A DNA stretch of 64,000 bases, taken from positions 62,001-126,000 of the forward strand of contig NZ_STGH01000004.1 of NCBI RefSeq assembly GCF_005222785.1, in the 5' to 3' direction. Shown here in pieces: positions 24,428 through 38,106 of this stretch (within the stretch, counting starts at the first letter, position 1; each line of letters opens with the position of its first letter). The notes below the pieces were generated by a model. The model worked only from the letters and a program-made list of their open reading frames with translations. It was not told the DNA's origin and did no database searches. The stretch is from Rhodobacter sp. SY28-1 (GTDB taxonomy: Bacteria; Pseudomonadota; Alphaproteobacteria; Rhodobacterales; Rhodobacteraceae). A program made the translations under genes and the position numbers.

Positions 24428-25375
24428 TCAGCGTTCCCCCTTGTTGTAGGGCACCATCAGCGCCGCCGGGACTTCAGCACGCCGGGACATCAGGATCAGC
24501 GCCAGGATCGACAGGATGAAGGGCAGGGCAAGGAACAGTTGATAGGGCAAGACTGCCCCCAGTTCCGTCTGCTGCAGGCGGATTTGCAGCGCATCAAAGG
24601 CCGCGAACAGGATCGCGCCCAGGACCGCCTTGCCCGGTTTCCACGCCCCGAAGACAACCAGCGCCACGCAGATCCAGCCCCGCCCGTTCACCATCTCGAA
24701 GAAGAAGCTTGAGAAAGCCGACAGCGTCAGGAACGCCCCCCCGACTGCCATCAACCCAGACCCCACCATCACCGCCCCAATCCGCAGGCCGGTCACCGAC
24801 AGCCCCTGCGCCTCGACCGCCGCCGGGTTCTCGCCCACCGCGCGCACCGCCAAACCCAGCGGCGTGCGGTAAAGCGTGAAGGCCACCAGCCCCGCTACCG
24901 CAAAGGCCGCCCAGGTCAGCGCCGTCTGCGAAAACAACGCCTCACCCAGCCAGGGCAGGTCGCTGAGAACAGGGATATCAAGCGGCTGGAACGGCTCGAT
25001 CTTCGGCGGGCTGGTGACCTCGGGCAGCATCAGCCGGTAGGCGAAGGACGCGGAGGCGGTGGCAAACAGCGTCACCCCCAGCCCCACCACATGCTGCGAC
25101 AACCCGAAGGGCACGGTCAGCGTCGAATGAAGAAGCCCGAACAGCATCCCCGCCGCCATCGCCACCGCGACCCCGCCCCACAGCGGCATCCCCTGATAGA
25201 CGGCCATCCAGCCGGTGAAGGCACCGATGACCATGATCCCCTCGATCCCCAGGTTCAGCACGCCCGCCCGTTCGCAGATCAGCTCGCCCATCGTCGCCAG
25301 GATCAGCGGCGAGGCGATGCGGATCACCGCAGCCCAAAAGCTGGCCGAAATCAGGATGTCGACGATTTCGCTCAT
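24428..25375 (-). CDS. nucleoside-type ABC importer permease 2
   Basis: A 315-residue integral membrane protein of the YufQ/branched-chain type permease group used with BMP-type receptors. The N-terminal ASPLILATMGELICERAGVLNLGIEGIMVIGAF is the hallmark segment (ERAGVxNxGxEG). About eight to ten hydrophobic helices follow. The ATG at 25375 overlaps the stop of the first permease (ATGA). The gene is followed without spacing by the deaminase start. Confidence 0.92.
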   Translation of the reverse strand: MSEIVDILISASFWAAVIRIASPLILATMGELICERAGVLNLGIEGIMVIGAFTGWMAVYQGMPLWGGVAVAMAAGMLFGLLHSTLTVPFGLSQHVVGLGVTLFATASASFAYRLMLPEVTSPPKIEPFQPLDIPVLSDLPWLGEALFSQTALTWAAFAVAGLVAFTLYRTPLGLAVRAVGENPAAVEAQGLSVTGLRIGAVMVGSGLMAVGGAFLTLSAFSSFFFEMVNGRGWICVALVVFGAWKPGKAVLGAILFAAFDALQIRLQQTELGAVLPYQLFLALPFILSILALILMSRRAEVPAALMVPYNKGER

Positions 25376-26415
25376 CCCCGCACCACGCGGACGCGTGTCA
25401 GCAGGATCGCCAGCACCATGAACAGAAGGGCCGTCGCCATCAGCATGTCGGCGATATAGGTCGGCACCCCGGCAGCCCGGCTCATCGCGCCCGACCCCAC
25501 GAAGATCCCCGCGACGAAGATCGCCGTCACGACCACCCCCAGCGGATGCAGCAGCGCCAGCATCGCGACGATGATCCCGGTGTAGCCGAACCCGGGCGAC
25601 AGGTCCGACGACAGATGCCCCTTCAGACCCGCCACCTCCGACCACCCGGCCAGCGCCGCCAACCCGCCCGACAGCAAAGCGGTCTTTACCAGCACCGCAT
25701 TGACAGGCATCCCCGCGAACCGAGCCGCTTCCGGGTTCTGGCCCACGGCCCGGATCTCGAACCCCAGGGTCGTGCGGGTCTGGATCACCCAGACAATAAC
25801 CGCCGCAAGGATCGCCAGCGCAAAGCCCCAGTGCAGCCGCAGCCCTTCGACGATCCGGGGCAGCCGCGCCTCGGGGATCAGGGCAGGGGACTTGGGCCAG
25901 CCCATTCCCAGCGGGTCCTTCATCGGGCCTTCCAGCAGGTAGCTGACAAAGAGAAGCATGATGAAGTTCAGCAGCAAGGTCGTTACGACCTCATCCACCC
26001 CCAGCCGCGTCTTCAACAGCACCGGCCCCAGCAGCAGCACCGCCCCCGCCAACATTGCGGCCAGCGCCGAGACGGGCAGCACCAGAGGGCTTCCCAAGGC
26101 GCCTGTCCCCAACACGACGGCCACGATCGCCCCCGCATAAAGCTGCGCCTCGGCCCCGATGTTCCACAGCTTCGCGCGGAACGCGACCGCCACGGCCAGC
26201 CCGGTAAAGATCAGCGGTGTCGCGCGGTTCAGCGTCTCCAGCACCGCCAGCTTCGACCCCAGCGCCCCGGTTGCGATCTGGCCCAGCACCGCAAAGGGGT
26301 TCGCCCCGGCCACCAGCGCCAGAGCCATCGCCACCCCCAGCGTGGCGACCAGCGCCAGCGCGGGCAGGCCCAGCCTGCGGGCCGCGGACGGGTTGGCGAT
26401 GGGCTCAAGCCGCAT
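25372..26415 (-). CDS. nucleoside-type ABC importer permease 1
   Basis: A 347-residue integral membrane protein, the partner of the permease downstream (YufP type). TPLIFTGLAVAVAFRAKLWNIGAEAQLYAGA is the conserved FRxGLxNIGxEGQ-like loop that contacts the ATPase. It starts 11 nt inside the end of the ATPase gene and ends overlapping the next permease by 4 nt, so all subunits are translationally coupled. Confidence 0.92.
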   Translation of the reverse strand: MRLEPIANPSAARRLGLPALALVATLGVAMALALVAGANPFAVLGQIATGALGSKLAVLETLNRATPLIFTGLAVAVAFRAKLWNIGAEAQLYAGAIVAVVLGTGALGSPLVLPVSALAAMLAGAVLLLGPVLLKTRLGVDEVVTTLLLNFIMLLFVSYLLEGPMKDPLGMGWPKSPALIPEARLPRIVEGLRLHWGFALAILAAVIVWVIQTRTTLGFEIRAVGQNPEAARFAGMPVNAVLVKTALLSGGLAALAGWSEVAGLKGHLSSDLSPGFGYTGIIVAMLALLHPLGVVVTAIFVAGIFVGSGAMSRAAGVPTYIADMLMATALLFMVLAILLTRVRVVRG

Positions 26416-27937
26416 GGGCGCCCTCGAACTTCTGCCCCGCCATCCACAGGCCCAGTTCTGCCGCCGTCATCGTCCCGCGCGCGAAGCCCGGAGATAGCCG
26501 CCCTTGAGACATCACATGAATGATATCCGACAAGCCCATGATTTCATCCAGGTCTTCGGAAATCAGAAGAACCGCAGCCCCCCGGTCCCGCGCAGCGATC
26601 AGCTGGGATTGCACATAGGCAATCGCCCCCACATCCAGCCCCCGCACCGGCTGGTTCGCCAGGATGATGTCCGGCCCCACAGCCATCGCGCGCCCAAGGA
26701 TCAGCTTCTGCATGTTCCCGCCCGACAAGAGCCTGATCCGCGTCGAAGGTCCCGGGCAGCGCACGTCGTAGCCCTTGATGATCCCTTCCGCAAAGGCCCG
26801 TGCCGCCCGCCAGTTCATCCAGCCGCGCCGGGAGAATCGCGTGCGATATCCTTCCAGCACCGCATTCTCGGTCAGGTCGAAATCGGCGATGCTGCCCTGA
26901 TGGTGCCGGTCTTCCGGGATGCGTGCGACGCCCCGCGCCAATGCCTCGCCCGGCGTCCAGACCTTAGGCTCTTGCCCATGCAGCGACAGTCGCCCCTCGG
27001 CCGGTCGGGCCAGGCCACCGACAATCTCGGCCAGCGCTGCCTGCCCGTTGCCCGAAACGCCCGCGAGGCCCGTGATCTGCCCCGCGCGCAACTCCAGCGT
27101 CACCATCTTCAACCCAGGAGAGGCCCCCCGGTTCGGGGTCGAGACCCCGGCAATCCGCATCAGCACCGCCCCAGCGGCGCGCGCCTCGGCCCGGGGCAGG
27201 GACAGCTCGCCCCCGACCATCAGCGCCGCCAGCGCTGCCTTGTCGGTCGCATGGGTATCGACCTCGCCCACCACGCGCCCGTGCCGCAAGACCACGCAGC
27301 GGTCGGCAATCGCCATCACCTCGTGCAGCTTGTGGCTGATGAAGATCACCGACAGCCCCAAACCCGTCGCCTTGCGCAAGGTCGCGAACAGCGCCTCGGA
27401 TTCCTGCGGCGTCAGCACCGCCGTCGGTTCATCCAGGATCAGGACGCGCGCATCGCGGTAGAGCGCCTTCAGGATCTCGACCCGTTGCCGTTCGCCCACC
27501 GAAAGACGGCCCACCTTGGCATCGGGATGCACCGCCAGCCCAAAGTCGCGCGACAGCCGTTCCACCTTCTCCCGCGCGCCAGCGTCCGAGCGTGACCAGA
27601 GCCCCTCGGTCCCCAGCCGGATGTTGTCCAGCACCGTCAGGTTCCCGGCCAGCGTGAAATGCTGGTGGACCATCCCCACCCCGGCGGCCAGCGCCGCACG
27701 GGGATTGCCAGGGGGCAGGGGCTGACCGAAGACCTCCACCGACCCCTCATCGGCCACATAGTGACCGAAAAGGATGTTCATCAGTGTCGTCTTCCCCGCG
27801 CCGTTTTCTCCAAGCAATGCAACGACTTCCCCGCGCCGCAGGGTCAGGCTGACTCCATCGTTCGCGGTCAGCGCGCCAAACCGCTTGGTGATGCGGTCGA
27901 GGCGGAGGACAACCTCCGCCCCCTTTTCCCCGGTCAC
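26405..27937 (-). CDS. nucleoside-type ABC importer ATPase (two ABC domains)
   Basis: A 510-residue tandem ABC ATPase of the sugar/nucleoside class (YufO, RbsA-like). The first domain has Walker A GENGAGKTT, signature LSVGERQRVEIL and Walker B VLILDEP; the second has a degenerate P-loop (GVSGNGQAAL) and signature LLSGGNMQKLILGRA, followed by IILANQPVRGLD where the Walker-B Glu is replaced by Gln, as usual in this class. It overlaps the binding-protein gene upstream (4 nt) and the permease downstream (11 nt). Confidence 0.93.
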   Translation of the reverse strand: MTGEKGAEVVLRLDRITKRFGALTANDGVSLTLRRGEVVALLGENGAGKTTLMNILFGHYVADEGSVEVFGQPLPPGNPRAALAAGVGMVHQHFTLAGNLTVLDNIRLGTEGLWSRSDAGAREKVERLSRDFGLAVHPDAKVGRLSVGERQRVEILKALYRDARVLILDEPTAVLTPQESEALFATLRKATGLGLSVIFISHKLHEVMAIADRCVVLRHGRVVGEVDTHATDKAALAALMVGGELSLPRAEARAAGAVLMRIAGVSTPNRGASPGLKMVTLELRAGQITGLAGVSGNGQAALAEIVGGLARPAEGRLSLHGQEPKVWTPGEALARGVARIPEDRHHQGSIADFDLTENAVLEGYRTRFSRRGWMNWRAARAFAEGIIKGYDVRCPGPSTRIRLLSGGNMQKLILGRAMAVGPDIILANQPVRGLDVGAIAYVQSQLIAARDRGAAVLLISEDLDEIMGLSDIIHVMSQGRLSPGFARGTMTAAELGLWMAGQKFEGAHAA

Positions 27938-28947
27938 GACGACTTCGGCTCGTTGTCGTCGATGGTCACGGTAAAGCTGCCATCCTTGATCGCGGCTTCC
28001 TTCTCGGCCACCAGCGCCATCACCTCGGCCGGGACCTTGCCCTCGAAGGTGCCAAGCGGCGCCAGCGAGCAGCCGCCCGCGTTCATGAAAGAATAGACCC
28101 CGTAGTTGTCGGCCGTGAACGTCCCGGCCTGGATCGCCGCCACGGCTGCATTCAGCGTGGGTTCAAAGTGCCACAGCGCCGAGGTGACGACCGTCTCCGG
28201 GTAGTCCGCTTGCGTGTCGATCACGTTGCCGATCGCCAGCACCCCGCGTTCCTTGGCCGCATCCGACACGCCAAAGCGTTCGGCATACATCAGGTCCGCC
28301 CCGCCATCGATCATCGCGAAGGCGGTTTCCTTGGCCTTCGGCGGATCGAACCAGGACCCGATGAACGAAACCTGGAACTTGGCATCCGCCTTCACCTCGC
28401 GCACACCCGCCATGAAGGCGTTCATCAGCCGGTTGACCTCGGGGATCGGGAAGCCGCCGACCATGCCGATGTTGCCCGCCGTCATGCCCCCCGCGACGAT
28501 GCCGGACAGATAGGCCGCGTCCTGGATGTAGTTGTCGAAGACCGCAAGGTTCGGGTTCGCGGCCGCATCCGGCATGAAGCTCGACCCCAGCAGGAAGGCG
28601 ACGTCCGGGTATTCTGCACAGACCTCGCGCGCCTCGGCCTCAGCCCCGAAGATCTCGCCCACGATCAGCTTGACGCCCGCCTCGCAGTATTCGCGCATCA
28701 CGCGGGGGTAGTCGGTGTTCGCCACGTTCTCGGTGTAGGTGTAATCCACCGTCCCCGCCGCTTTCAGCGCCTCGGCGGCGATGTGGATGCGGCTGACCCA
28801 CTGCTGTTCCACCGGCACCGTGTAGATGCCCGCCATCTTGATCGGCTCCTGCGCCAGCGCCACGCCCGGCAGGTTCGCGGCAACCGTCGCCGCCGCCCCA
28901 CCCAGAAGCAGCCCGCGCCGCGATACCGTAAAGGTTCCTGAGGTCAT
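27934..28947 (-). CDS. BMP-family (PnrA-like) substrate-binding protein with Tat-type signal
   Basis: A 337-residue receptor of the basic-membrane-protein family, which bind nucleosides. The signal peptide VSRRGLLLGGAAATVAANLPGVALA starts with a twin-arginine pattern (SRRGLLL), so export by the tatABC system in this window is plausible. The mature part has KMAGIYTVPVEQQWVSRIH, the entry strand of the fold, and a central KLIVGEIFGAEAEAREV and GMVGGFPIPEVNRLMNAF. It is the first gene of the importer operon and is divergent from a GntR-family regulator. Confidence 0.9.
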   Translation of the reverse strand: MTSGTFTVSRRGLLLGGAAATVAANLPGVALAQEPIKMAGIYTVPVEQQWVSRIHIAAEALKAAGTVDYTYTENVANTDYPRVMREYCEAGVKLIVGEIFGAEAEAREVCAEYPDVAFLLGSSFMPDAAANPNLAVFDNYIQDAAYLSGIVAGGMTAGNIGMVGGFPIPEVNRLMNAFMAGVREVKADAKFQVSFIGSWFDPPKAKETAFAMIDGGADLMYAERFGVSDAAKERGVLAIGNVIDTQADYPETVVTSALWHFEPTLNAAVAAIQAGTFTADNYGVYSFMNAGGCSLAPLGTFEGKVPAEVMALVAEKEAAIKDGSFTVTIDDNEPKSS

Positions 28948-28992: not shown

Positions 28993-29220
28993 AGAGGTAA
29001 AACTCTTTCCCGATTCGTTACAAGCGACAGTTTGCTTCGGTCAACCTGCGCGAAGGGGGCGTTCCCCGCGCAACGGAAACTGCCGAAACCTTCGGCAGAT
29101 CATTGGCTTGTCGCCGAAATTGAATGCACTGCCTGAACTGCTGATCCAGCGGGTTTTCGCAGGCAGGGCATCGACGAACCGCCCTTGCCTGTGGCAGGGT
29201 CGCCGCCAAGGAGAGCGCCC

Positions 29221-29886
29221 ATGTCCACCCCCTTCGCCGGCCCGCAGATCCCCAGCCTCGTCCAGCACATCCTGGACCGGATCGACCTGGGCCAGCTGAA
29301 CCCCGGCGATCTTCTGGACGAGGCGGAACTCAGCGAAACCCACGGCGTCTCGCGCACCCCAGTGCGTGAGGCGATTCTTTATCTCGAAGCGCTGGGCCTC
29401 GTCCGCCGCCTGCCGCGCAAGGGGGCGGCGATCTTCCGTCCCACCCTCGAAGAGTTCCTCGCGATCCTCGAAGTCCATGCGAAACTGGAAGGCCAGGCTG
29501 CAGGCCTTGCCGCCCGCCGTCTGTCGCGACAGGGGGCCGAGGACCTTGAGGCCGCCGTCCGCGCCTGCGAGGCGAAGGCAGCGCAAAGCCCCAGCGACGA
29601 CCCCGACGGCTATTATCAGCTGAACCTGCGCTTTCATGCCTGCGTGGCGATTGCCTCGGGCAACGGCGTTCTTCTGGAAAGCCTGAAAACCAATGCCCGC
29701 CGCCTGCTCGCCTACTACCGCGCGCGCTACCGCTTTCAGGGGGCGATCCCGAAATCCGCCGCCGAACACCGCGCCATCGCGCGCCTGATCACGGATCGGG
29801 ATTCGGCGGGGGCCGAGGCGATGATGCAATCCCATGTCCAGTTCGACCAGGTCACCGCGATGGACCTGCTGGCCGCCCTGTCCTGA
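29221..29886 (+). CDS. GntR-family regulator, FCD (FadR-like) type
   Basis: A 221-residue regulator. The N-terminal winged helix contains LLDEAELSETHGVSRTPVREAILYLEALGLV, the recognition helix SRTPVREAL of GntR proteins. The C-terminal all-helical FCD domain (from EEFLAILEVHAKLEGQAAGLA; then LNLRFHACVAIASGNG and AEHRAIARLI) has the His/Asp metal residues typical of sensors for organic acids and related ligands. The ATG at 29221 has AAGGAG 7 nt upstream; one at 29185 has none. It is divergent from the nucleoside-type importer and probably controls it. Confidence 0.9.
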   Translation: MSTPFAGPQIPSLVQHILDRIDLGQLNPGDLLDEAELSETHGVSRTPVREAILYLEALGLVRRLPRKGAAIFRPTLEEFLAILEVHAKLEGQAAGLAARRLSRQGAEDLEAAVRACEAKAAQSPSDDPDGYYQLNLRFHACVAIASGNGVLLESLKTNARRLLAYYRARYRFQGAIPKSAAEHRAIARLITDRDSAGAEAMMQSHVQFDQVTAMDLLAALS

Positions 29887-29895
29887 CCCAAGTCC

Positions 29896-29918
29896 AAAAT
29901 TTTTCGTCGAAGAATTTT
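29896..29918. terminator. AT-rich palindrome between convergent genes
   Basis: AAAATTTTTCG (29896-29906) pairs with CGAAGAATTTT (29908-29918), with one mismatch and one unpaired base. It lies between the converging GntR and amidotransferase genes and has U-rich ends in both directions, so it should work as a bidirectional terminator. It resembles a half of the double TTCGAA element. Confidence 0.6.
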
Positions 29919-30630
29919 AGACTTGCGGCCTCGGGCCTTCGAAAAACCGCGCGATCCATTCGGCAAAGCGCTGCCCTTCCGTGTCAAGCGCGAGTGAGGC
30001 CTTAGCAGCCGCCCCAACCTCTGCCGGAAACTTCGGCGCAAATTCCTCAACAAGCGCCGCCAGAAACTCCGGCGTCATCTCCGGGTGATACTGCGTGGCA
30101 AAGATCGCGCTTCCGATCCGGTAGCACGCCGCCGGGCACCCCGGCGTCTGTCCCACCACCTCCGCCCCCGGTGGCAGCACCGTCACCTGCTCGCCATGCG
30201 CCGCCGCCAGCCGAAAGCTGCCGACAGGCTCCATCCACGGGGCAGGGGAGACCACCTCCGTCTCCGCCGTCCCAAGAACGAACGGCCCCGGATTCGGCCC
30301 GACGGTGCCCCCCAGCGCCATGGCAATCGCCTGATGCCCGAAGCAGGCCCCCGCCAACGGCTTGCCCGCCGCATGGGCCTCCCGGATCACCGCGAACAGC
30401 CGCTCGATCCAGGCGTCCTCGTCATGGACCGACGACGGGCTGCCCCCGATCAGGAAGCCGTCAACCCCTTGCACATCTTCAGGAAACTCTCCCTTCGGCA
30501 GGTCGAAGGCAGTGATTTTCCACCCCGGCCGCACCCCGTGCATCAGCGCCCGGAACTTCTCGACATCCCGCGGATGCTTCGCCGCAAACGCGCTGTCGTC
30601 CGTGTTCGTTGCCAGCACCGCGATATGCAT
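29917..30630 (-). CDS. class I glutamine amidotransferase-fold protein
   Basis: A 237-residue GATase-fold protein. The nucleophile elbow GACFGHQ places the catalytic Cys at residue 96, and TQYHPEM gives His182 and Glu184, so the triad is intact. There is no synthetase domain, so it is either a free amidotransferase or, like PuuD, a hydrolase of gamma-glutamyl bonds. It is divergent from the P450-glutamine synthetase-ferredoxin operon with only about 70 bp between, which suggests shared control. The ATG at 30630 is chosen for the AAGGGAAA 5 nt upstream and the immediate Rossmann strand MHIAVLATN. Confidence 0.8.
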   Translation of the reverse strand: MHIAVLATNTDDSAFAAKHPRDVEKFRALMHGVRPGWKITAFDLPKGEFPEDVQGVDGFLIGGSPSSVHDEDAWIERLFAVIREAHAAGKPLAGACFGHQAIAMALGGTVGPNPGPFVLGTAETEVVSPAPWMEPVGSFRLAAAHGEQVTVLPPGAEVVGQTPGCPAACYRIGSAIFATQYHPEMTPEFLAALVEEFAPKFPAEVGAAAKASLALDTEGQRFAEWIARFFEGPRPQV

Positions 30631-30699
30631 GAGATTTCCCTTTACATATTTAACATGTTCATCATTATACAGAGCGCACCGCAGGGCAAGGAGGAAGCG
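30631..30699. promoter_or_regulatory. divergent promoter region, AT-rich
   Basis: This 69-bp gap between two divergent genes is much more AT-rich than its surroundings. It holds the near-palindrome TTAACATGTTCA (30650-30661), followed by CATTATACAG. It must contain the promoters of both units and is a good place for a regulator to act on both at once. No regulator gene adjoins it. Confidence 0.45.
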
Positions 30700-31956
30700 A
30701 TGACAGTCTGGACGCCCACCGACGACGGTTTCGCCGACCTCACTTCGCATGACACCTTCCTGCAAGGCGCGCCCCACAACACCTTCGCACGCCTGCGCCG
30801 CGACGACCCCTGCCACTGGACCGACTACCCGGCAGGGCAGGGCTTCTGGTCCCTCACCCGCCACGAGGACATCCACCGCCTGAACGGCCAGCCCGACCTC
30901 CTCTCCTCGGCCCGGGGGATCCGGATGGAGGATCAGAGCTACGAGGAATACCTCGCCCGCCGCACCTTCCAGGAAACCGACCCGCCGGAACACATGATGA
31001 CGCGGGTGAAGGTCGCCAAGGCCTTCTCGAAACCTGTCATTGCCACGTTCGAGCAATCCATCCGCGACCTTTGCACCACGATCCTCGACGCCGCCCTACA
31101 AAAGGAAACCTTTGACGCCACAAAGGAAATCGCCCGTGAGCTTCCCATGCGGATGCTGGGCCGCATCGTCGGCCTGCCCGACGAAGACCTCCCCTGGCTG
31201 GTGGAAAAGGGCGACGCCCTCATCGCCAACACCGACCCCGACTTCACGCCCCACGTCCTCGACAAGCTGACCACCGACGAATTTCGCATGATGCCCTTCA
31301 ACTCCCCGGCAGGCGCGGAACTATTCGTCTACGCCAAGGACCTGATGGCCCGCAAAGCCGCCGCGGGGGACACCAACGGCGTCCTGCACATGATCCTTCA
31401 GCCCGGCCACGACGGTCAGGTCATGCCGGAAAACGAATTTCGCAACTTCTTCTGCCTGATCGTCGCTGCCGGGAACGACACCACCCGCTATTCCATCGCC
31501 GCGGGCCTGCAAGCCCTCGCCCACCAACCCGAACTCCTCGCCCTGATCCAGTCCGGCCAAGTCGACGACACCATGGCGGATGAGATCATCCGCTGGGCCA
31601 GCCCGACAAGCTACTTCCGCCGCACCGCCACCCGCGATTTCGAGCTGCACGGGAAACAGGTGAAGGCGGGCGACAAGGTCCTTTACTGGTTCGCCTCGGC
31701 CAACCGCGACGAGACTGTCTTCGATCAGCCCTTCCGCGTCGACCTTGCCCGCAACCCGAACAAGCACCTCGCTTTCGGTCAGGGTGGCCCGCATCTGTGC
31801 CTCGGCATGTGGCTCGCCCGCCTGGAAGTCCGGGTCCTGTTTCAGGAACTCGCCAAACGGATCAAATCCATCGAACCGGCGGGAGAGCAGAAATTCCTGC
31901 GCTCGAATTTCGTGGCGGGGCTGAAAAGTCTGCCCGTCCGTGTCACGCTGCAATGA
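30700..31956 (+). CDS. cytochrome P450
   Basis: A 418-residue soluble bacterial P450. The I-helix reads AAGNDTT (residues 256-262), ExxR is EIIR (295-298) and the haem-binding loop is FGQGGPHLCLG with the thiolate Cys at 367. That loop has one residue more (GP) than the common FGxGxHxCxG pattern. The ATG at 30700 has AAGGAGG 6 nt upstream. It is followed by a glutamine synthetase-like gene and a [2Fe-2S] ferredoxin, which is the likely electron donor; no ferredoxin reductase is in the window. The substrate is unknown; the neighbours suggest an amine or its gamma-glutamyl derivative. Confidence 0.92.
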   Translation: MTVWTPTDDGFADLTSHDTFLQGAPHNTFARLRRDDPCHWTDYPAGQGFWSLTRHEDIHRLNGQPDLLSSARGIRMEDQSYEEYLARRTFQETDPPEHMMTRVKVAKAFSKPVIATFEQSIRDLCTTILDAALQKETFDATKEIARELPMRMLGRIVGLPDEDLPWLVEKGDALIANTDPDFTPHVLDKLTTDEFRMMPFNSPAGAELFVYAKDLMARKAAAGDTNGVLHMILQPGHDGQVMPENEFRNFFCLIVAAGNDTTRYSIAAGLQALAHQPELLALIQSGQVDDTMADEIIRWASPTSYFRRTATRDFELHGKQVKAGDKVLYWFASANRDETVFDQPFRVDLARNPNKHLAFGQGGPHLCLGMWLARLEVRVLFQELAKRIKSIEPAGEQKFLRSNFVAGLKSLPVRVTLQ

Positions 31957-31987
31957 ACCGTTAAGAACCAACCGGGGGACTACCGAA

Positions 31988-33280
31988 ATGGCCGACCGCC
32001 TGCGCGCGATGTTCTGCGACCACCTCAGCCTGATGCGCGGTAAATACCTGCCCGCGTCGAAACTGAAATCCGACGGCACCCGCATGGCGCGGCCGACCTT
32101 CAGCGTGCACTGGGACAAGGACCTGATCCTTGACGCGCCCCACACCAAATGCCGCGAAGGCATTCCCGACATGGAACTCCGCTGGGAGGCGTCGGAAATC
32201 CGCCAGGGGTGGGAACCCGACACAAAGGTCGTCACCGGCGACCTTTACGACAGCGACGGCCAACGCATCCCCCTCTGCCCCCGCAGCGCCCTGAAACGCG
32301 CCGTCGCGGCCTGGGAAGCCAAGGGCCTCACCCCCAAAGTCGGCATTGAACTCGAAGCCTTCGCTTTCGAGATCGCCGAAGACGGCTCCATCGCCCCCAT
32401 GCACGCCCCCGGCGGCATCGTTTACGGCACCGGCCCCTTCGCCGACCCTGCAGGCTTCACCGATGCGATCTGGAACCGGGCCGAAGAGGCGGGGTTCAAG
32501 CTCGACCTCATCACGGCCGAATACGACACCCCGCAATACGAATTCACCCTGGCCTATGACACGGCGGTCAAGGCGGTGGACGAAATGGTCCTCTTCCGCC
32601 AGATGGCCCGCGAAGTGGCGCTGGACCACGGCATCCTGCTGACCTTCCTGCCGAAACCGATCCTGGAAAAGGGCGGCTCGGGGTTGCATTTCAACCTCTC
32701 CTTCGCCGACAAGGCGGGCAAGAACGCCCTGCAAACCGGCGCCAAGGGTGGCCCCGACCACATGAACGACCTCGCCAAAGGCGTCGTCGCGGGCTGGCTC
32801 CATCATCACAAGGGCCTTGCCGGTCTTCTCGCCCCCACCGTGGGAAGCTACCTTCGCCTGCAACCGGCCTCGATGTCGGGCTACTGGTGCAACTGGGGCG
32901 GCGACCACCGCGGCGTGACGGTTCGCGTCTCGGAAGAAGGAGGCCCGAAGACCCGGCTTGAGCACCGCATGGCCGATGCCAGCTGCAACCCCTACACGGC
33001 GCTCGCCGCCCTCCTGCAGGCCGGTCTTCTGGGGGTTCAGAACGGCTACACCCTCCCCGCGCCCGAGGCCGGCGACGGCTTTGACCGCACCGACGCGGGC
33101 TACGGCGTAGCCGCCTCTCTGGCCGAGGCGATGGACGATCTCGAGGCCGACACGGCGCTGGCGGCCGCGATTGGCCCGGAACTTGTCGAACACCACGTCT
33201 TCATGAAGCGCATCGAGGTGACCAAGACCGATGGCCTCGAGGGCGCGGCCTTGCGTGACTATTACATCTGGTATGTCTGA
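31988..33280 (+). CDS. glutamine synthetase-family ligase (GlnT/PuuA-like)
   Basis: A 430-residue member of the glutamine synthetase superfamily, shorter than housekeeping GlnA. The catalytic domain carries VGIELEAFAF (first metal Glu), ITAEYDTPQYEFTLAYD (second), GSGLHFNLSF with the metal His, and PKTRLEHRMADASCNPYTALAALL near the end (the GlnA RIP-SSNPYLA region). Such proteins often join glutamate to amines (gamma-glutamyl-polyamine, -methylamide or -alkylamide ligases) instead of ammonia. The ATG at 31988 has GGGGGA upstream. It sits between P450 and ferredoxin genes, pointing to an amine substrate or product of that system. Confidence 0.85.
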   Translation: MADRLRAMFCDHLSLMRGKYLPASKLKSDGTRMARPTFSVHWDKDLILDAPHTKCREGIPDMELRWEASEIRQGWEPDTKVVTGDLYDSDGQRIPLCPRSALKRAVAAWEAKGLTPKVGIELEAFAFEIAEDGSIAPMHAPGGIVYGTGPFADPAGFTDAIWNRAEEAGFKLDLITAEYDTPQYEFTLAYDTAVKAVDEMVLFRQMAREVALDHGILLTFLPKPILEKGGSGLHFNLSFADKAGKNALQTGAKGGPDHMNDLAKGVVAGWLHHHKGLAGLLAPTVGSYLRLQPASMSGYWCNWGGDHRGVTVRVSEEGGPKTRLEHRMADASCNPYTALAALLQAGLLGVQNGYTLPAPEAGDGFDRTDAGYGVAASLAEAMDDLEADTALAAAIGPELVEHHVFMKRIEVTKTDGLEGAALRDYYIWYV

Positions 33281-33287
33281 GGGACCG

Positions 33288-33602
33288 ATGAAAGCCACCT
33301 GGAAACTGGCCGATGGCCGCGAAATCACCCTCGACGTCGCCGCAGGCACCAGCCTGATGGAAGCCGCCACCGCCCGCGGCGTCCCCGGCATCATCGGCGA
33401 ATGCGGCGGGTCGATGTCCTGCGCCACCTGCCATGTCGTCGTCGACCCAGCGTGGTCGGACCGGGCAGGGCCGCCCAGTGCGTTCGAGGAAGACATGCTC
33501 GACATCACCGAGGCCGGCCGCCAACCGACCTCGCGCCTCTCCTGCCAGATCAGGATGACCGCCGCGCTGGACGGGATCGTGCTCAGCGTGCCGGAGCTCT
33601 GA
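33288..33602 (+). CDS. [2Fe-2S] ferredoxin, putidaredoxin/adrenodoxin type
   Basis: A 104-residue ferredoxin. Cluster ligands are Cys39, Cys45, Cys48 (GECGGSMSCATCHV) and Cys86 (RLSCQI), the C-X5-C-X2-C...C spacing of ferredoxins that serve P450s and Rieske systems. The ATG at 33288 follows GAGGGA; one at 33273 overlapping the ligase stop is also possible. Its place in the operon makes it the probable electron donor for the P450 at 30700-31956. Confidence 0.93.
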   Translation: MKATWKLADGREITLDVAAGTSLMEAATARGVPGIIGECGGSMSCATCHVVVDPAWSDRAGPPSAFEEDMLDITEAGRQPTSRLSCQIRMTAALDGIVLSVPEL

Positions 33603-33736: not shown

Positions 33737-34495
33737 ATGCACGACACCCTTTCCGCAATCCTCGCCGAAGCAGGCACCCAGGCCCTCGGCTTCTTCAACA
33801 CCCTCCAAGCCCGCACCATCGAGGCCAAGGCCCCCGGCGACCTCGTCTCCGACGCCGACCGCGCTATCGAAGTGAGCCTTCGCCGCCTCCTTGCCCGGCA
33901 CTTTCCTGACGATGGCATCCTGGGTGAGGAGATGGGCGGCCGACCCTCCGGCCGCTTCTGGGCCGTGGACCCGATCGACGGCACCTCGAACTTCCTTTCC
34001 GGACTGCCGTTCTGGACGATCTCCGTTGGCCTGATGGATCGCGGCCAACCCATCGCCGGTGGCATCCTCGCCCCTGCGCTGGGCCTCATGGCTGTGACCG
34101 ACGGCACCGCGATCCATGAAACCGGCCTCGCCCCCGGCTCCCGCTCGACCGATCCCCCCTGCATCGGCCTTGGCCGGAACGACCGCTGGCCCGCCGCCGA
34201 CCGCCACGCCCTTGAGGCCGCCATCGAGGCCCAAGGTCTCTCCCCCCGCCTCTTCGGCTCCTGCGCGCTCTCCTTGATGCTGGTCGCCACCCACCGCCTG
34301 AAAGGCTACATCGAGCCCCGCGTCGGCGGGTTATGGGACTGCGCTGCGGGTCTCGCCATCTGCCGCGCGGCAGGCCTGCCGACGGCGTTCAAGGTCCACC
34401 CGGACGGCACGGTCGATGTCCTTGCGGGACAGGTTTTCGACCTGAACCTACCCTCGGACTGGGCCCGGACCCTCGCCCCCCACCGCGCCGATTGA
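33737..34495 (+). CDS. inositol monophosphatase-family phosphatase
   Basis: A 252-residue Mg2+-dependent phosphatase. Metal ligands are Glu64/Glu65 (ILGEEMGG) and the DPIDGTSNF motif (residues 78-86); the C-terminal GGLWDCAAG gives the WD motif. Family members act on inositol phosphates, histidinol phosphate, fructose-1,6-bisphosphate or PAPs, and these motifs do not distinguish among them. It is separated from the P450 operon by a hairpin element and stands alone. The iol cluster 17 kb away is not a sufficient reason to assign inositol phosphate as substrate. Confidence 0.85.
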   Translation: MHDTLSAILAEAGTQALGFFNTLQARTIEAKAPGDLVSDADRAIEVSLRRLLARHFPDDGILGEEMGGRPSGRFWAVDPIDGTSNFLSGLPFWTISVGLMDRGQPIAGGILAPALGLMAVTDGTAIHETGLAPGSRSTDPPCIGLGRNDRWPAADRHALEAAIEAQGLSPRLFGSCALSLMLVATHRLKGYIEPRVGGLWDCAAGLAICRAAGLPTAFKVHPDGTVDVLAGQVFDLNLPSDWARTLAPHRAD

Positions 34496-34587
34496 TCCTG
34501 CCAGATCATTCAAGCTTGAAACATCTTGAGGCCCCCCCGCATGTGCCCTATCGTTCCCGGGCAAACGGGTGGGAAGGACGGCATACC

Positions 34588-36555
34588 TTGGCCAGCAACA
34601 CGACGACGGGGGGCTACTTCCTCTACCATTCCATCGGCATCTATCCCGGCAAGGAAGAAGACATGGCCCGCGCGATGGCCGAGTTTTCCGAGGTCTGGGC
34701 CGCCCCGAACGACAAACAGTGGGGCTACGTCCTGCGGAAGCGGCAGGATTTCATCGACCGCTGGCGCCGTCTCATCAACGTCCCGAAGGGCAGCTTGACC
34801 ACTGTCGACAATGTCACCGAAGGCCTGCAGAAGATCCTCCGTGCCCTGCCGGAAGGCACCCTTAAGGGAAAGCGAGTCCTGGCCGCCGCCGACTGCTTCC
34901 CCTCGCTCCACTTCCTCCTCGCGGGCCTTGCCCCGAAGATGGGCTTCACCCTGACTACCGTCCCCCTCAGCGAAGGCCTCCCCCTCGTCACCACCGAGGA
35001 TTTCCTGAGCCATTGGGGCCCCGACGTCGGGCTCGCTCTCCTCACCTGGGTCACCTCCATCGGCTCCTCGAAGATGGACTACGAAACCCTCGTGGCCCAC
35101 GGCCGACGGATGGGCAGCCTGATGGTCGCCGACATCACCCAAGGCGCGGGCCTGATGCCCTTTGACGCGATGAACCCGAGGGTGGATTTCGTCGTCTCGA
35201 CCAGCCTCAAATGGCTCTGCGGCACGCCGGGGGCAGGCATCCTTTACGCCGACAAGGACCTGATCCCCGGCCTCACCCCGGAAGGCCGCGGCTGGTTCTC
35301 CCAGAACAACCCGTTTTCCTGGGACCTCGACAAATTCGAGTACGCCCCCGACGTCCGCCGCTTCGATACCGGCACGCCGGGGTCTGTCGCGGCCATCGCC
35401 TCACTTCCGGCGATGGAGTGGTTCTCCAAGCAGGACCTGAACGACGTCGCCGCCCACAACCGCCGTCTGGTCGACCGGGTGATCATCCGCGCCGACCGGC
35501 TGGACCTGCCGCTCCACTCCCCCCGCGACGCCCACAAGCGCGGCGGTGCGGTGATGATCCGCATGCCCGACAAGGCCGAAGCCGCCGCTTGCGTCGGCGC
35601 TTTGGGGTTCGAGGGCTACTCCGTCGACTTCCGCGGCCCGATTCTGCGCATGTCCCCCGGCTTCGTGACCGAGGAACGCGCCGTGGACGCCGTCTTCGAC
35701 ATGGTCGAAGAGGTGATGACCCGCCGCCGCCGCCGCTTCGCGGGGCAGGGGGAAAGAAGTGGAAACCCTGCCGAAGTGCTGGCGGGCCTCGCCACGGGGC
35801 TTGCGGGCGGGGGCGTCAAGGTCGTCGACCTCACCGCCCAGCTTGGCCCCGAAACCCCGATCCTCCGCTTGCCCACGGACCTTGCGAAGAACACCCCAAA
35901 GGTCGCCATCCACCCGATCAGCGCCTACGACCAGAACGGCCCCTTCTGGGCCTGGAACTGGCTCACCCTCGGCGAACACTCCGGCACCCATTTCGACGCG
36001 CCGCACCATTGGTTGTCGGGCAAGGACCACCCGGACGGCTTTACCGACACCCTGTCGGTCCAACGCCTGATCGCGCCAGTGAACGTCATCGACTGCTCGG
36101 CCGAGGCCGCCGCCGACCCCGATTTCCTCCTGACCGCCACCCATGTGAAGGCGTGGGAGGCAAAGCACGGGCCAATCGGGCCGGGAGAATGGGTCCTGAT
36201 GCGCACCGACTGGGACAAGCGGTCCCACGACGAAGAGCTGTTCCTGAACGAAGACCCCGACCCATACGAGGACGGCTCCCACTCCCCCGGCCCGTCCACC
36301 GACTGCATCGACTACCTCCTCGGCAAGGGGATCGTCGGCTGGGGCACCCAGTGCATCGGCACCGATGCGGGCATGGCGGGCAAGTTCAGCCCGCCGTTTC
36401 CGGCGCACAACTTCCTGCACCGGGACAACTGCTTCGGCCTTGCCAGCCTCTGCAACCTCGACCAGCTGCCACCGAAGGGCGCGGTCCTGATCGTGACGCC
36501 CCTGAAGATCAAGGACGGCACCGGCTCACCCATCCGGGCGCTGGCGCTGGTCTGA
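34588..36555 (+). CDS. fused kynureninase-like PLP enzyme / KynB-like cyclase
   Basis: A 655-residue fusion. Residues 1-385 are a class V aminotransferase-fold PLP enzyme resembling kynureninase: VDNVTEGLQKIL, the Asp in VADITQGAGLMP, and STSLKWLCGTPGAGILY with the probable Schiff-base Lys at 208. After a linker, residues 409-655 are a cyclase/arylformamidase-type domain with the metal motif HSGTHFDAPHHW (about 463-474). In tryptophan breakdown these two activities are consecutive (formylkynurenine to kynurenine to anthranilate), so the fusion may channel them. The start is TTG at 34588, with GGAAGGA 9 nt upstream; no ATG fits. No tryptophan dioxygenase is near, so another acyl or hydrazide substrate is possible. 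Confidence 0.8.
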   Translation: MASNTTTGGYFLYHSIGIYPGKEEDMARAMAEFSEVWAAPNDKQWGYVLRKRQDFIDRWRRLINVPKGSLTTVDNVTEGLQKILRALPEGTLKGKRVLAAADCFPSLHFLLAGLAPKMGFTLTTVPLSEGLPLVTTEDFLSHWGPDVGLALLTWVTSIGSSKMDYETLVAHGRRMGSLMVADITQGAGLMPFDAMNPRVDFVVSTSLKWLCGTPGAGILYADKDLIPGLTPEGRGWFSQNNPFSWDLDKFEYAPDVRRFDTGTPGSVAAIASLPAMEWFSKQDLNDVAAHNRRLVDRVIIRADRLDLPLHSPRDAHKRGGAVMIRMPDKAEAAACVGALGFEGYSVDFRGPILRMSPGFVTEERAVDAVFDMVEEVMTRRRRRFAGQGERSGNPAEVLAGLATGLAGGGVKVVDLTAQLGPETPILRLPTDLAKNTPKVAIHPISAYDQNGPFWAWNWLTLGEHSGTHFDAPHHWLSGKDHPDGFTDTLSVQRLIAPVNVIDCSAEAAADPDFLLTATHVKAWEAKHGPIGPGEWVLMRTDWDKRSHDEELFLNEDPDPYEDGSHSPGPSTDCIDYLLGKGIVGWGTQCIGTDAGMAGKFSPPFPAHNFLHRDNCFGLASLCNLDQLPPKGAVLIVTPLKIKDGTGSPIRALALV

Positions 36556-36618: not shown

Positions 36619-37389
36619 TCACCCGGGAATGAACTGCCGCGCCCGCGCCCGCAACGCGCCGACGTAGGCCAGCACGTCGATCCCCACACCCACGAACCGC
36701 GCCCCCGCCGTCACACAGTCGGCGATGAACGGGTCCTCCGTCGACAACACCCCGGCCGCCTTGCCCGATGCCGCAATGCGCGCCAGCGCGTCCATGACCG
36801 CCCCCCGCACCTCCGGATGGCCGGCGTTCCCCAGATGCCCCATGTCGGCGGCCAGGTCCGACGGCCCGATGAAGACGCAGTCCACCCCCGGGATCGTCAG
36901 GATCTCGTCTAGCGCCGCCAGCCCCACCCGGCTTTCGAGCTGCAGGATCAGGCAGATCTGGTCCCCAGCCGTCTTCAGGTAATCCGGGATCGCCGAGAAC
37001 CGCGAGGCCCGCGCCAGCGACGACCCCACACCCCGGATGCCATCGGGCGGATAGCGCGTCGCCGCCACGGCCCGCCGCGCCTGATCGGCACTTTCGATCA
37101 TCGGGATCAGCAGGCTTTGTGCCCCCGCGTCCAGCGCCTGCTTGATCCGCGCCGGATCATCGTCGCGCAGCCGCACCACGGGCAAGGACGGCGAAGGCTC
37201 GATCACCGCCAGCTGCGCCATCGTCGACCGCAGGTCGTTCGGCGCATGTTCCCCGTCGATCAGCAGCCAGTCGAAGCCACAGGTCGCGGCCATTTCGGCG
37301 GCGTAAGGGTCTGCCATGCCAAGCCAGCAGCCGTACAGCGTCTCTCCCTCGGACAGACGGCGTTTCAGGTGGTTCCGGGGGGCAGGCAT
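36619..37389 (-). CDS. hpaI: HpcH/HpaI-family aldolase
   Basis: A 256-residue class II aldolase of the 2,4-dihydroxyhept-2-ene-1,7-dioate aldolase family (TIM barrel, divalent metal). GCWLGMADPYAAEMAATCGFDWLLIDGEHAPND and the later ILQLESRVGLAALDEI and DCVFIGPSDLAADMGHLG contain the Arg/His/Glu/Asp active-site set of HpaI. Family members cleave or form pyruvate-aldehyde aldols with wide substrate range. The divergent neighbour is an HpaR-type regulator, but the rest of the homoprotocatechuate pathway is absent, so the physiological substrate may be a sugar-acid derivative. The ribosome-binding site is weak. Confidence 0.85.
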   Translation of the reverse strand: MPAPRNHLKRRLSEGETLYGCWLGMADPYAAEMAATCGFDWLLIDGEHAPNDLRSTMAQLAVIEPSPSLPVVRLRDDDPARIKQALDAGAQSLLIPMIESADQARRAVAATRYPPDGIRGVGSSLARASRFSAIPDYLKTAGDQICLILQLESRVGLAALDEILTIPGVDCVFIGPSDLAADMGHLGNAGHPEVRGAVMDALARIAASGKAAGVLSTEDPFIADCVTAGARFVGVGIDVLAYVGALRARARQFIPG

Positions 37390-37611: not shown

Positions 37612-38106
37612 ATGACCGATCAGCCGCCACCGTTCCGCCAGACCCGCAGGTCCCTGCCGATTGCGCTCTTGCGCGCGCGTGAGGCCGTGATGGGCCCCTT
37701 GCGTGGCATGCTGGCGACCTCTGGTGTCAACGAACAGAAGTGGCGGGTCCTGCGCGTGTTGCAGGAACGCGGCCCGCTGGAACTCAGCCAGGTTGCGGCC
37801 GAGGCGGTGCTTCTCCTGTCCAGCCTGACCCGCATGGTCGGCCCGATGGTAGAGGAAGGCCTGATCTCGCGGATGACCCCGCCGGAAGATCGGCGCAAGT
37901 CGATCGTCGCGATCACACCTGTCGGGCTTGCGCTGGTCAACGCCCATGCCAAGCAAAGCGCCGCCATCCTGGGTCGGATCGAGACCGAGTTCGGCCACGA
38001 CCGGCTTGAAGCGCTCTTGGACCTTCTGGAAGACCTGCAGAAGCTGGACCTCAATCCCGTAGCACCCGGTGCGGAGCGGAAGCCCAGCTCCAAGGCGAAA
38101 CGCTGA
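37612..38106 (+). CDS. hpaR: MarR-family regulator, HpaR type
   Basis: A 164-residue winged-helix regulator. LPIALLRAREAVMGPLRGML..GVNEQKWRVLRVLQERGPLELSQVA and LSSLTRMVGPMVEEGLISR match the HpaR (homoprotocatechuate-operon regulator) branch of MarR; the wing is PPEDRRKSIVAITP. It is divergent from hpaI and transcribed toward the large catabolic block that starts 180 bp downstream. It probably controls the divergent aldolase gene; control of the downstream block is possible but a different palindrome lies there. Confidence 0.85.
   Translation: MTDQPPPFRQTRRSLPIALLRAREAVMGPLRGMLATSGVNEQKWRVLRVLQERGPLELSQVAAEAVLLLSSLTRMVGPMVEEGLISRMTPPEDRRKSIVAITPVGLALVNAHAKQSAAILGRIETEFGHDRLEALLDLLEDLQKLDLNPVAPGAERKPSSKAKR

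Follow-up and report, generated by a model that had tools for sequence, protein, structure and literature searches.

A P450 cassette with a glutamine-synthetase-like ligase in Rhodobacter sp. SY28-1 and its possible role in feeding an arylethylamine into homoprotocatechuate degradation

A 64,000-nucleotide stretch of the 4.28 Mb genome of Rhodobacter sp. SY28-1 (hereafter the window; positions 62001-126000 of contig C4, NZ_STGH01000004.1) encodes a cytochrome P450, a glutamine-synthetase-like ligase and a putidaredoxin-type [2Fe-2S] ferredoxin, with a class I glutamine amidotransferase-like protein encoded divergently. These four genes form a conserved cassette, an operon beyond what chance would produce, and among related genomes the cassette is strongly associated with genes for ring cleavage of homoprotocatechuate (3,4-dihydroxyphenylacetate). 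We propose that this is a catabolic cassette in which glutamate would serve as a temporary tag, bringing an arylethylamine, likely tyramine, into homoprotocatechuate degradation. Substrates and reactions are all predicted from sequence and gene context, and we give the reading as a whole a probability of about one half.

Gene content and conservation of the cassette

The four genes named in the initial annotation were found full length and intact where it had placed them (Table 1), and in a Pfam search of the window proteins their families, GATase (PF00117), p450 (PF00067), Gln-synt_C (PF00120) and Fer2 (PF00111), all exceeded the gathering score. The translated P450 carries AGNDT in its I-helix and a heme-Cys stretch reading FGQGGPHLCLG, and is 74.5% identical to its counterpart in Ruegeria TM1040, 59% in Novosphingobium EMRT-2 and 40% in S. 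canus. With its adjoining ferredoxin, whose PDB matches are headed by ferredoxin 3hui (5e-27) and then putidaredoxin (~2e-26), it presents the arrangement of a class I P450 and a [2Fe-2S] ferredoxin. The amidotransferase retains both the nucleophile motif GACFGHQ and the His-Pro-Glu motif YHPE. Gamma-glutamyl peptidase 1 heads its PDB matches (E 2.9e-21), a distant match but one consistent with a putative role as a gamma-glutamyl hydrolase.

Table 1. Features of the window discussed in the text; positions are counted from the first nucleotide of the window.
Feature	Position	Strand	Evidence
Class I glutamine amidotransferase-like protein, proposed gamma-glutamyl amide hydrolase	29917..30630	-	PF00117, 59 bits; GACFGHQ and YHPE; PDB match
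Divergent promoter region, 69 bp	30631..30699	.	TTTACATATTTA at 30641, conserved in homologous intergenic regions
Cytochrome P450, proposed gamma-glutamyl amide monooxygenase	30700..31956	+	PF00067; AGNDT; heme-Cys motif
Glutamine-synthetase-like protein, proposed gamma-glutamyl amide ligase	31988..33280	+	PF00120, 249 bits; flap PGYEAP replaced by PASMSG
Putidaredoxin-type [2Fe-2S] ferredoxin, proposed P450 electron donor	33288..33602	+	PF00111; PDB matches
GntR/FCD regulator, convergent with the amidotransferase gene; possible cassette regulator	29185..29886	+	PF00392 and PF07729
HpaI-type aldolase (last homoprotocatechuate step)	36619..37389	-	PF03328; TIGR02311, 329 bits, cut-off of 369 not reached
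HpaR-type MarR regulator	37627..38106	+	TIGR02337, 120.6 bits, slightly under the cut-off of 121.2

Relatives of the ligase were sought at E <= 1e-70 in 295 genomes of the same family, nearly all sampled one per genus, and were found in 58. Among the best 80 of 254 ligase relatives, the nearest named ones were from Tabrizicola and Rhodobacter, and nearly all were labelled as Rhodobacteraceae or Rhodobacterales genera, a few metagenome-assembled genomes bearing other names. The comparison of neighbourhoods covered 54 of the 58 genomes (the SY28-1 genome itself, G069, G095 and G155 being set aside) and 55 loci, each spanning at most 20 kb. Cassette members were counted by tblastn, because calling of open reading frames (ORFs) loses some amidotransferase genes that are overlapped by a backward extension of the P450 frame. 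A P450 was present no more than 5 kb from the ligase gene in 52 loci, an amidotransferase in 50, a GntR regulator in 29 and a ferredoxin in 23, and the complete set of four occurred in 22. The co-occurrence elsewhere on which the initial annotation had staked its proposal thus holds for the P450 and the amidotransferase and for the full set in 22 loci, while for the ferredoxin it holds in only 23 of the 55.

The gap between the amidotransferase and P450 genes is, as first described, an AT-rich divergent promoter region of exactly 69 bp (55% A+T against ~34% across the window). Within it lies a 12-mer, TTTACATATTTA (30641-30652), that has a single exact copy in the window; of 95 distinct intergenic sequences homologous to this gap, 60 contain it unchanged. 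In loci L038-L173 (2.52 Mb), 68 of the 70 exact copies fell in the amidotransferase-P450 intergenic region; the other two, in L057 and L163, lay outside the intergenic set as cut, the L057 copy being between the amidotransferase gene and a broken P450 gene. Those found among L174-L245 sit in the refetched cassette loci L180-L182, L184 and L225. In L057 the P450 gene is eroded to small fragments and the ligase and amidotransferase genes are retained; the promoter motif is kept there and in L163, the two loci probably coming from one genome. The GntR regulator was considered as the protein binding the 12-mer and rejected, since presence of its gene was not significantly associated with a relaxed version of the motif (55/16/14/10, p 0.11).

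Glutamine is unlikely to be the product of the ligase, which scores far under the curated glutamine synthetase (GS) cut-offs and in which the flap glutamate is replaced. Its scores reach the cut-off of none of the five NCBIfam GS-type models that it matched, with 191 of 470 bits for TIGR03105 and 165 of 429 for TIGR00653, and its PDB matches include 8wwu (E 5.7e-29), which we take to be the structure of NpaA1. The flap PGYEAP, which holds the glutamate of the ammonium site, reads PASMSG in the window ligase, PASLSG in Novosphingobium and GGSWAG in IpuC; the PDB alignments begin after the Asp50' region (the catalytic aspartate of Salmonella GS), and the comparison concerns the flap glutamate alone. 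In glutamyl organic amide synthetases, the loss of both the flap glutamate and Asp50' is reported to be tied to an inability to use ammonium (PMC11335346). A true glutamine synthetase in an incidental gene cluster would agree with the GS catalytic domain and its conserved motifs. Given the lost flap glutamate, the low NCBIfam scores, eight further GS-like matches in the host genome and the conserved linkage to a P450, we regard this as extremely improbable.

The initial annotation had compared the locus with putrescine breakdown, where the Puu pathway uses a gamma-glutamyl ligase, PuuA, and a gamma-glutamyl hydrolase, PuuD. To our knowledge that pathway has no P450. The comparison turned out not to be the best analogy: the ligase reaches 194 of the 650 bits required by the gamma-glutamylputrescine synthetase model NF045547 and so does not qualify as that equivalog, and the amidotransferase matches PF07722, presumably the PuuD family, with 26 bits over 32 residues only. 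A putrescine-like substrate was discarded, as ligase and hydrolase both fail the Puu-type models, with part of the unlabelled ORFs nearby annotated.

A closer precedent is the isopropylamine (Ipu) cluster of Paenarthrobacter aurescens TC1 (pTC1, CP000475.1), in which an amidotransferase, a P450, a ferredoxin, a ferredoxin reductase and IpuC are encoded together; like the window cassette, it unites a GS-like ligase, a P450 system and an amidotransferase in one cluster. There, as described in PMC6776027, the P450 oxidises a gamma-glutamyl amide and the amidotransferase is postulated to free the product. The Ipu system differs in its aliphatic substrate and in having the ferredoxin reductase in the cluster, no hpa gene is annotated in the 13 kb of pTC1 around it, and its proteins do not qualify as orthologues of those in the window (ligase 30% and P450 26% identical, amidotransferase barely alignable at E 0.046). 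In the aniline (Atd) and 1-naphthylamine (Npa) systems, according to PMC11335346, a GS-like ligase glutamylates an aromatic amine on which an oxygenase then acts, as proposed here, and the aniline system includes a GATase-like protein reported to hydrolyse gamma-glutamylanilide back to aniline. The aniline oxygenase is a Rieske dioxygenase, whereas the conserved adjoining oxygenase of the window is a P450, and both systems carry the amine on the ring, unlike the arylethylamine proposed here. The order of events suggested at the outset, ligation, P450 oxidation and hydrolysis by the amidotransferase, is well supported by the Ipu precedent, the co-occurrence of the genes, the lost flap glutamate and the gamma-glutamyl peptidase match, and gamma-glutamyl tagging coupled to P450 oxidation is in our view very probable.

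Association with homoprotocatechuate cleavage

We compared 52 of the 58 genomes with the cassette, those at least 90% complete, with 52 cassette-negative genomes picked in order of handle among the first 71 (G008, G021 and G022 excluded for low completeness, G028 and G068 kept). HpaD of the TIGR02295 type was encoded in 45 of the 52 cassette genomes against 7 of the 52 without the cassette, 6 of the latter above the curated cut-off (Fisher p 2e-14). Five of the seven TIGR02295-negative cassette genomes carry the LigB-type HpaD (TIGR02298), which was looked for in 20 cassette and 20 cassette-negative genomes only and added none among the latter. Counting either type, 3,4-dihydroxyphenylacetate 2,3-dioxygenase is present in 50 of 52 cassette genomes and 7 of 52 others (p 4e-19, with TIGR02298 covering 20 of the 52 negatives); the two cassette genomes with neither type, G069 and G155, are in 300 and 370 contigs. 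In SY28-1, HpaD is encoded at C1:502578 (405 bits, cut-off 321).

Counts for three further genes cover the first 40 genomes of each list. As controls, HmgA was found in 36 of 40 cassette and 27 of 40 non-cassette genomes (p 0.027) and PaaA in 28 and 16 (p 0.013), both far weaker contrasts; of the ring-cleavage routes tested, only homoprotocatechuate thus shows a specific association at the genome level. Homogentisate and phenylacetate were rejected as destinations, HmgA and PaaA being weakly associated and PaaA not found in the SY28-1 genome, yet genes of both routes lie near the cassette in some genomes, as paaA does in Ruegeria TM1040. A group II decarboxylase occurs in 37 of 40 cassette genomes against 14 of 40 without it (p 9e-8); its family matches DOPA and tyrosine decarboxylases best, with DOPA decarboxylase as the top PDB match (E 9e-109).

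HpaB normally hydroxylates the ring of 4-hydroxyphenylacetate. It (PF11794) is absent from 45 of the 52 cassette genomes, SY28-1 included. The hpa (4-hydroxyphenylacetate/homoprotocatechuate) pathway is otherwise recognisable, HpaD, HpaE, HpaF, HpaG-like, HpaH, HpaI-like and HpaR proteins sharing genomes, and partly loci, with the cassette; it differs in these genomes in that HpaB is mostly missing and a decarboxylase gene often stands among the hpa genes, as in 18 of 39 hpa stretches (L185-L224). This placing of the decarboxylase is also seen in cassette-free genomes (L206, L207, L209).

When ORFs were clustered in the fetched flanks of 105 non-identical loci, the genes near the cassette included, in varying orders and orientations, HpaD, HpaH, HpaG-like, HpaF, HpaI, HpaR, the group II decarboxylase, aldehyde dehydrogenases and a Tct-type importer. 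In 26 loci the flank held one or more hpa-labelled genes, and in 50 a class III transaminase. Representatives of HpaD and HpaH, and an HpaE, passed NCBIfam cut-offs and HpaF passed Pfam CHMI, whereas those of HpaI and HpaG score under the NCBIfam cut-offs; the Tct and IclR labels are those of the TM1040 annotation, transferred to clusters through position in L173. In 8 of 50 genomes the dioxygenase and ligase genes are no more than 20 kb apart, against ~0.5 genomes expected (~1% each; p 4e-8), and the decarboxylase gene is as close to the ligase gene in 7 of 37. In SY28-1, HpaD, HpaF, HpaG, HpaH, an aldehyde dehydrogenase and a transaminase relative are encoded in one stretch of contig C1, the decarboxylase on C3, and HpaI- and HpaR-type proteins in the window.

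Beyond the Rhodobacteraceae, the P450 was found at E <= 1e-110 in 11 of 385 genomes sampled across the class, SY28-1 among them, and the ten other loci (L236-L245) were labelled by tblastn. Locus L240 unites the Tct importer, amidotransferase, P450, ligase, HpaI, HpaH, HpaG, HpaD, aldehyde dehydrogenase, HpaF, HpaR and transaminase. Both L242 and L243 carry the transaminase, IclR, aldehyde dehydrogenase, importer, amidotransferase, P450, ligase, a Tm-1-like protein and HpaR, with HpaH, HpaG and HpaD in addition in L243, and L244 has the aldehyde dehydrogenase, IclR, transaminase, decarboxylase, importer, amidotransferase, P450 and ligase. A second pattern, of aldehyde dehydrogenase, FAH, decarboxylase, P450, ligase and ferredoxin, was seen in L236-L238 and, minus a decarboxylase match, in L239; the run in L237 also encodes an acetoacetate-decarboxylase (ADC)-family protein and a LigB-type dioxygenase (142 bits, cut-off 316), and its aldehyde dehydrogenase is HpaE-like (536 bits, cut-off 638). 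In L241 and L245, both short contigs, no ligase match was found. On an actinobacterial plasmid of S. canus, a P450 (40% identical) and a ligase (33% identical) are encoded near an annotated 3,4-dihydroxyphenylacetate 2,3-dioxygenase, Actinomycetes being covered through plasmid records only, and a Novosphingobium plasmid carries the ligase and P450 genes near those for catechol 1,2-dioxygenase, FAH and a ferredoxin.

A predicted arylethylamine pathway and its alternatives

In the pathway that we propose, an aromatic-amino-acid decarboxylase would convert tyrosine to tyramine, or tyramine would be taken up, and the ligase would join glutamate to a primary arylethylamine, most likely tyramine, to give a gamma-glutamyl arylethylamide. 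The tagged amine would then be hydroxylated by the P450, served by the ferredoxin; the ring is the likeliest site, which would turn gamma-glutamyl-tyramide into gamma-glutamyl-dopamine. Hydrolysis of the tag by the amidotransferase would free glutamate and the catechol amine, which a class III transaminase and an aldehyde dehydrogenase would take to homoprotocatechuate, to be cleaved by HpaD, HpaE, HpaF, HpaG, HpaH and HpaI. That the substrate is an arylethylamine feeding homoprotocatechuate is, we think, fairly probable. Tyramine is favoured because a single ring hydroxylation leads from it to homoprotocatechuate and because HpaB, the usual enzyme, is so often missing. The initial annotation had left a choice between N-dealkylation and hydroxylation, and the link to hpa points to hydroxylation of the ring and away from N-dealkylation.

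Several observations weigh against this proposal. The genomes compared are related by descent, and the statistics ignore kinship. The ferredoxin is the least constant member of the cassette, with none of its type nearby in 32 of the 55 loci, and an amidotransferase of the window type was not found by tblastn in L236-L239. In most genomes the cassette is distant from hpaD, which in SY28-1 lies on a different contig. Among cassette genomes that carry the gene in question, hmgA lies at most 20 kb from the ligase gene in 5 of 36 and paaA in 3 of 28, showing that the cassette sits in general aromatic-catabolism islands and that the local linkage is not specific to hpa. HpaB is as rare without the cassette (7 of 52), and seven cassette genomes hold HpaB and the cassette together. 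Of the seven HpaD-positive, cassette-negative genomes, six are without HpaB and none has the cassette P450; other routes to homoprotocatechuate must therefore exist, and an exchange of HpaB for the P450 is not proved. Replacement of HpaB by the P450 was accordingly dropped as a clean rule. Finally, an MhpA-like flavin hydroxylase is encoded near some cassettes, and in SY28-1 beside homogentisate and hpa genes, and could itself be the ring hydroxylase.

With the local linkage shared by hmgA and paaA, we rate the more specific claims lower. Ring hydroxylation of tyramine by the cassette P450 is a tentative assignment, somewhat short of even odds. More tentative still is an undescribed route from tyrosine to homoprotocatechuate in which HpaBC would be replaced, in a sizeable part of the Rhodobacterales, by a P450 acting on a glutamate-tagged substrate.

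The flavin hydroxylase bears on an alternative in which the cassette does handle an arylethylamine but the P450 attacks its side chain, at the alpha or benzylic carbon, giving an aldehyde or a hydroxylated amide, the second ring hydroxyl coming from another enzyme such as this hydroxylase or from imported DOPA or dopamine. The hydroxylase is encoded near the decarboxylase in L065, L070 and L077 (with HpaI also in L070 and L077) and near hpa and hmgA in SY28-1, and the six genomes just described manage with neither HpaB nor the cassette P450. On the other hand, its cluster appears in the flanks of just 11 of the 105 loci, and the transaminase present in 50 of them could act on the free amine, so that side-chain cleavage by the P450 would be unnecessary; we consider this version unlikely.

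The general neighbourhood of aromatic catabolism would also suit a cassette that degrades a non-aromatic or N-heterocyclic amine, with the hpa link reflecting a shared niche and not a pathway. Known ligase and P450 sets do act on isopropylamine (PMC6776027), and in Gulosibacter the genes for a PipA/MorA-like P450 and ferredoxin stand, by locus number, beside a glutamine synthetase gene (PMC9477822). These piperidine and morpholine systems deal with secondary cyclic amines, and in the passages cited the glutamine synthetase is tied to nitrogen assimilation only. A shared niche fits poorly with the distribution of the dioxygenase (50 of 52 against 7 of 52), with the weak co-occurrence of the two other aromatic-ring genes and with the joining of cassette and hpa genes at single loci in other families, and it too seems unlikely.

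Glutamylation serves amine detoxification elsewhere, and the cassette might instead make a gamma-glutamyl catecholamine or dispose of a toxic amine, supplying no carbon to hpa. The fetched hpa stretches, L185-L224, contain no copy of the promoter 12-mer TTTACATATTTA, so regulation differs between the two gene sets. Since the cassette is associated with a full catabolic pathway, a Tct-type importer and a transaminase, a role in biosynthesis or detoxification appears very unlikely compared with the catabolic one that we prefer.

The locus was initially presented as a possible new amine pathway. Its general plan is already known from isopropylamine degradation by Ipu, and what would be new is the use of an aromatic amine and the link to homoprotocatechuate; we found no account of a glutamate-tagging P450 pathway for arylethylamines among the best-matching open-licence PMC papers, most subscription papers lying outside that scope. 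If the tyramine pathway is correct, glutamate tagging would extend from isopropylamine, anilines and naphthylamine to amines derived from natural aromatic amino acids, in bacteria of marine and fresh waters. It would also explain the source of the catechol in genomes that have homoprotocatechuate cleavage and are without HpaB, and would provide a P450 for regioselective hydroxylation of protected tyramine. A cassette of once-unassigned role would thereby become a testable pathway with named substrates.

Further genes around the cassette and related ligases

Downstream of the cassette, at window positions 34333-36555 (+), a 740-amino-acid ORF fuses a kynureninase-like PLP domain to a kynurenine-formamidase-like cyclase domain (Pfam); it is a natural fusion, its protein cluster occurring in 6 of the 105 loci. 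On the other side, at 25372-28947 (-), genes for a BMP-type substrate-binding protein, an ABC ATPase and a permease adjoin the cassette; in L038 and L075, too, this importer is encoded close to it. Few loci share the ABC importer, HisN or the kynureninase-cyclase ORF, so all three were discarded as clues to the substrate.

Outside the Rhodobacteraceae, an ADC-family protein is repeatedly encoded beside the ligase, whether the P450 is there too or not (L174, L175, L176, L179 and L237). Aldehyde dehydrogenase and, in part, FAH genes accompany it, and it may represent an additional or alternative ring-cleavage step. On a plasmid of Mesorhizobium loti NZP2037 (L177, 4.0-11.4 kb), a single run encodes a P450, a 2Fe-2S protein, a permease, a GS-like ligase, a TPR protein and a gamma-glutamyl-GABA hydrolase, and is probably another amine pathway built on a ligase and a P450.

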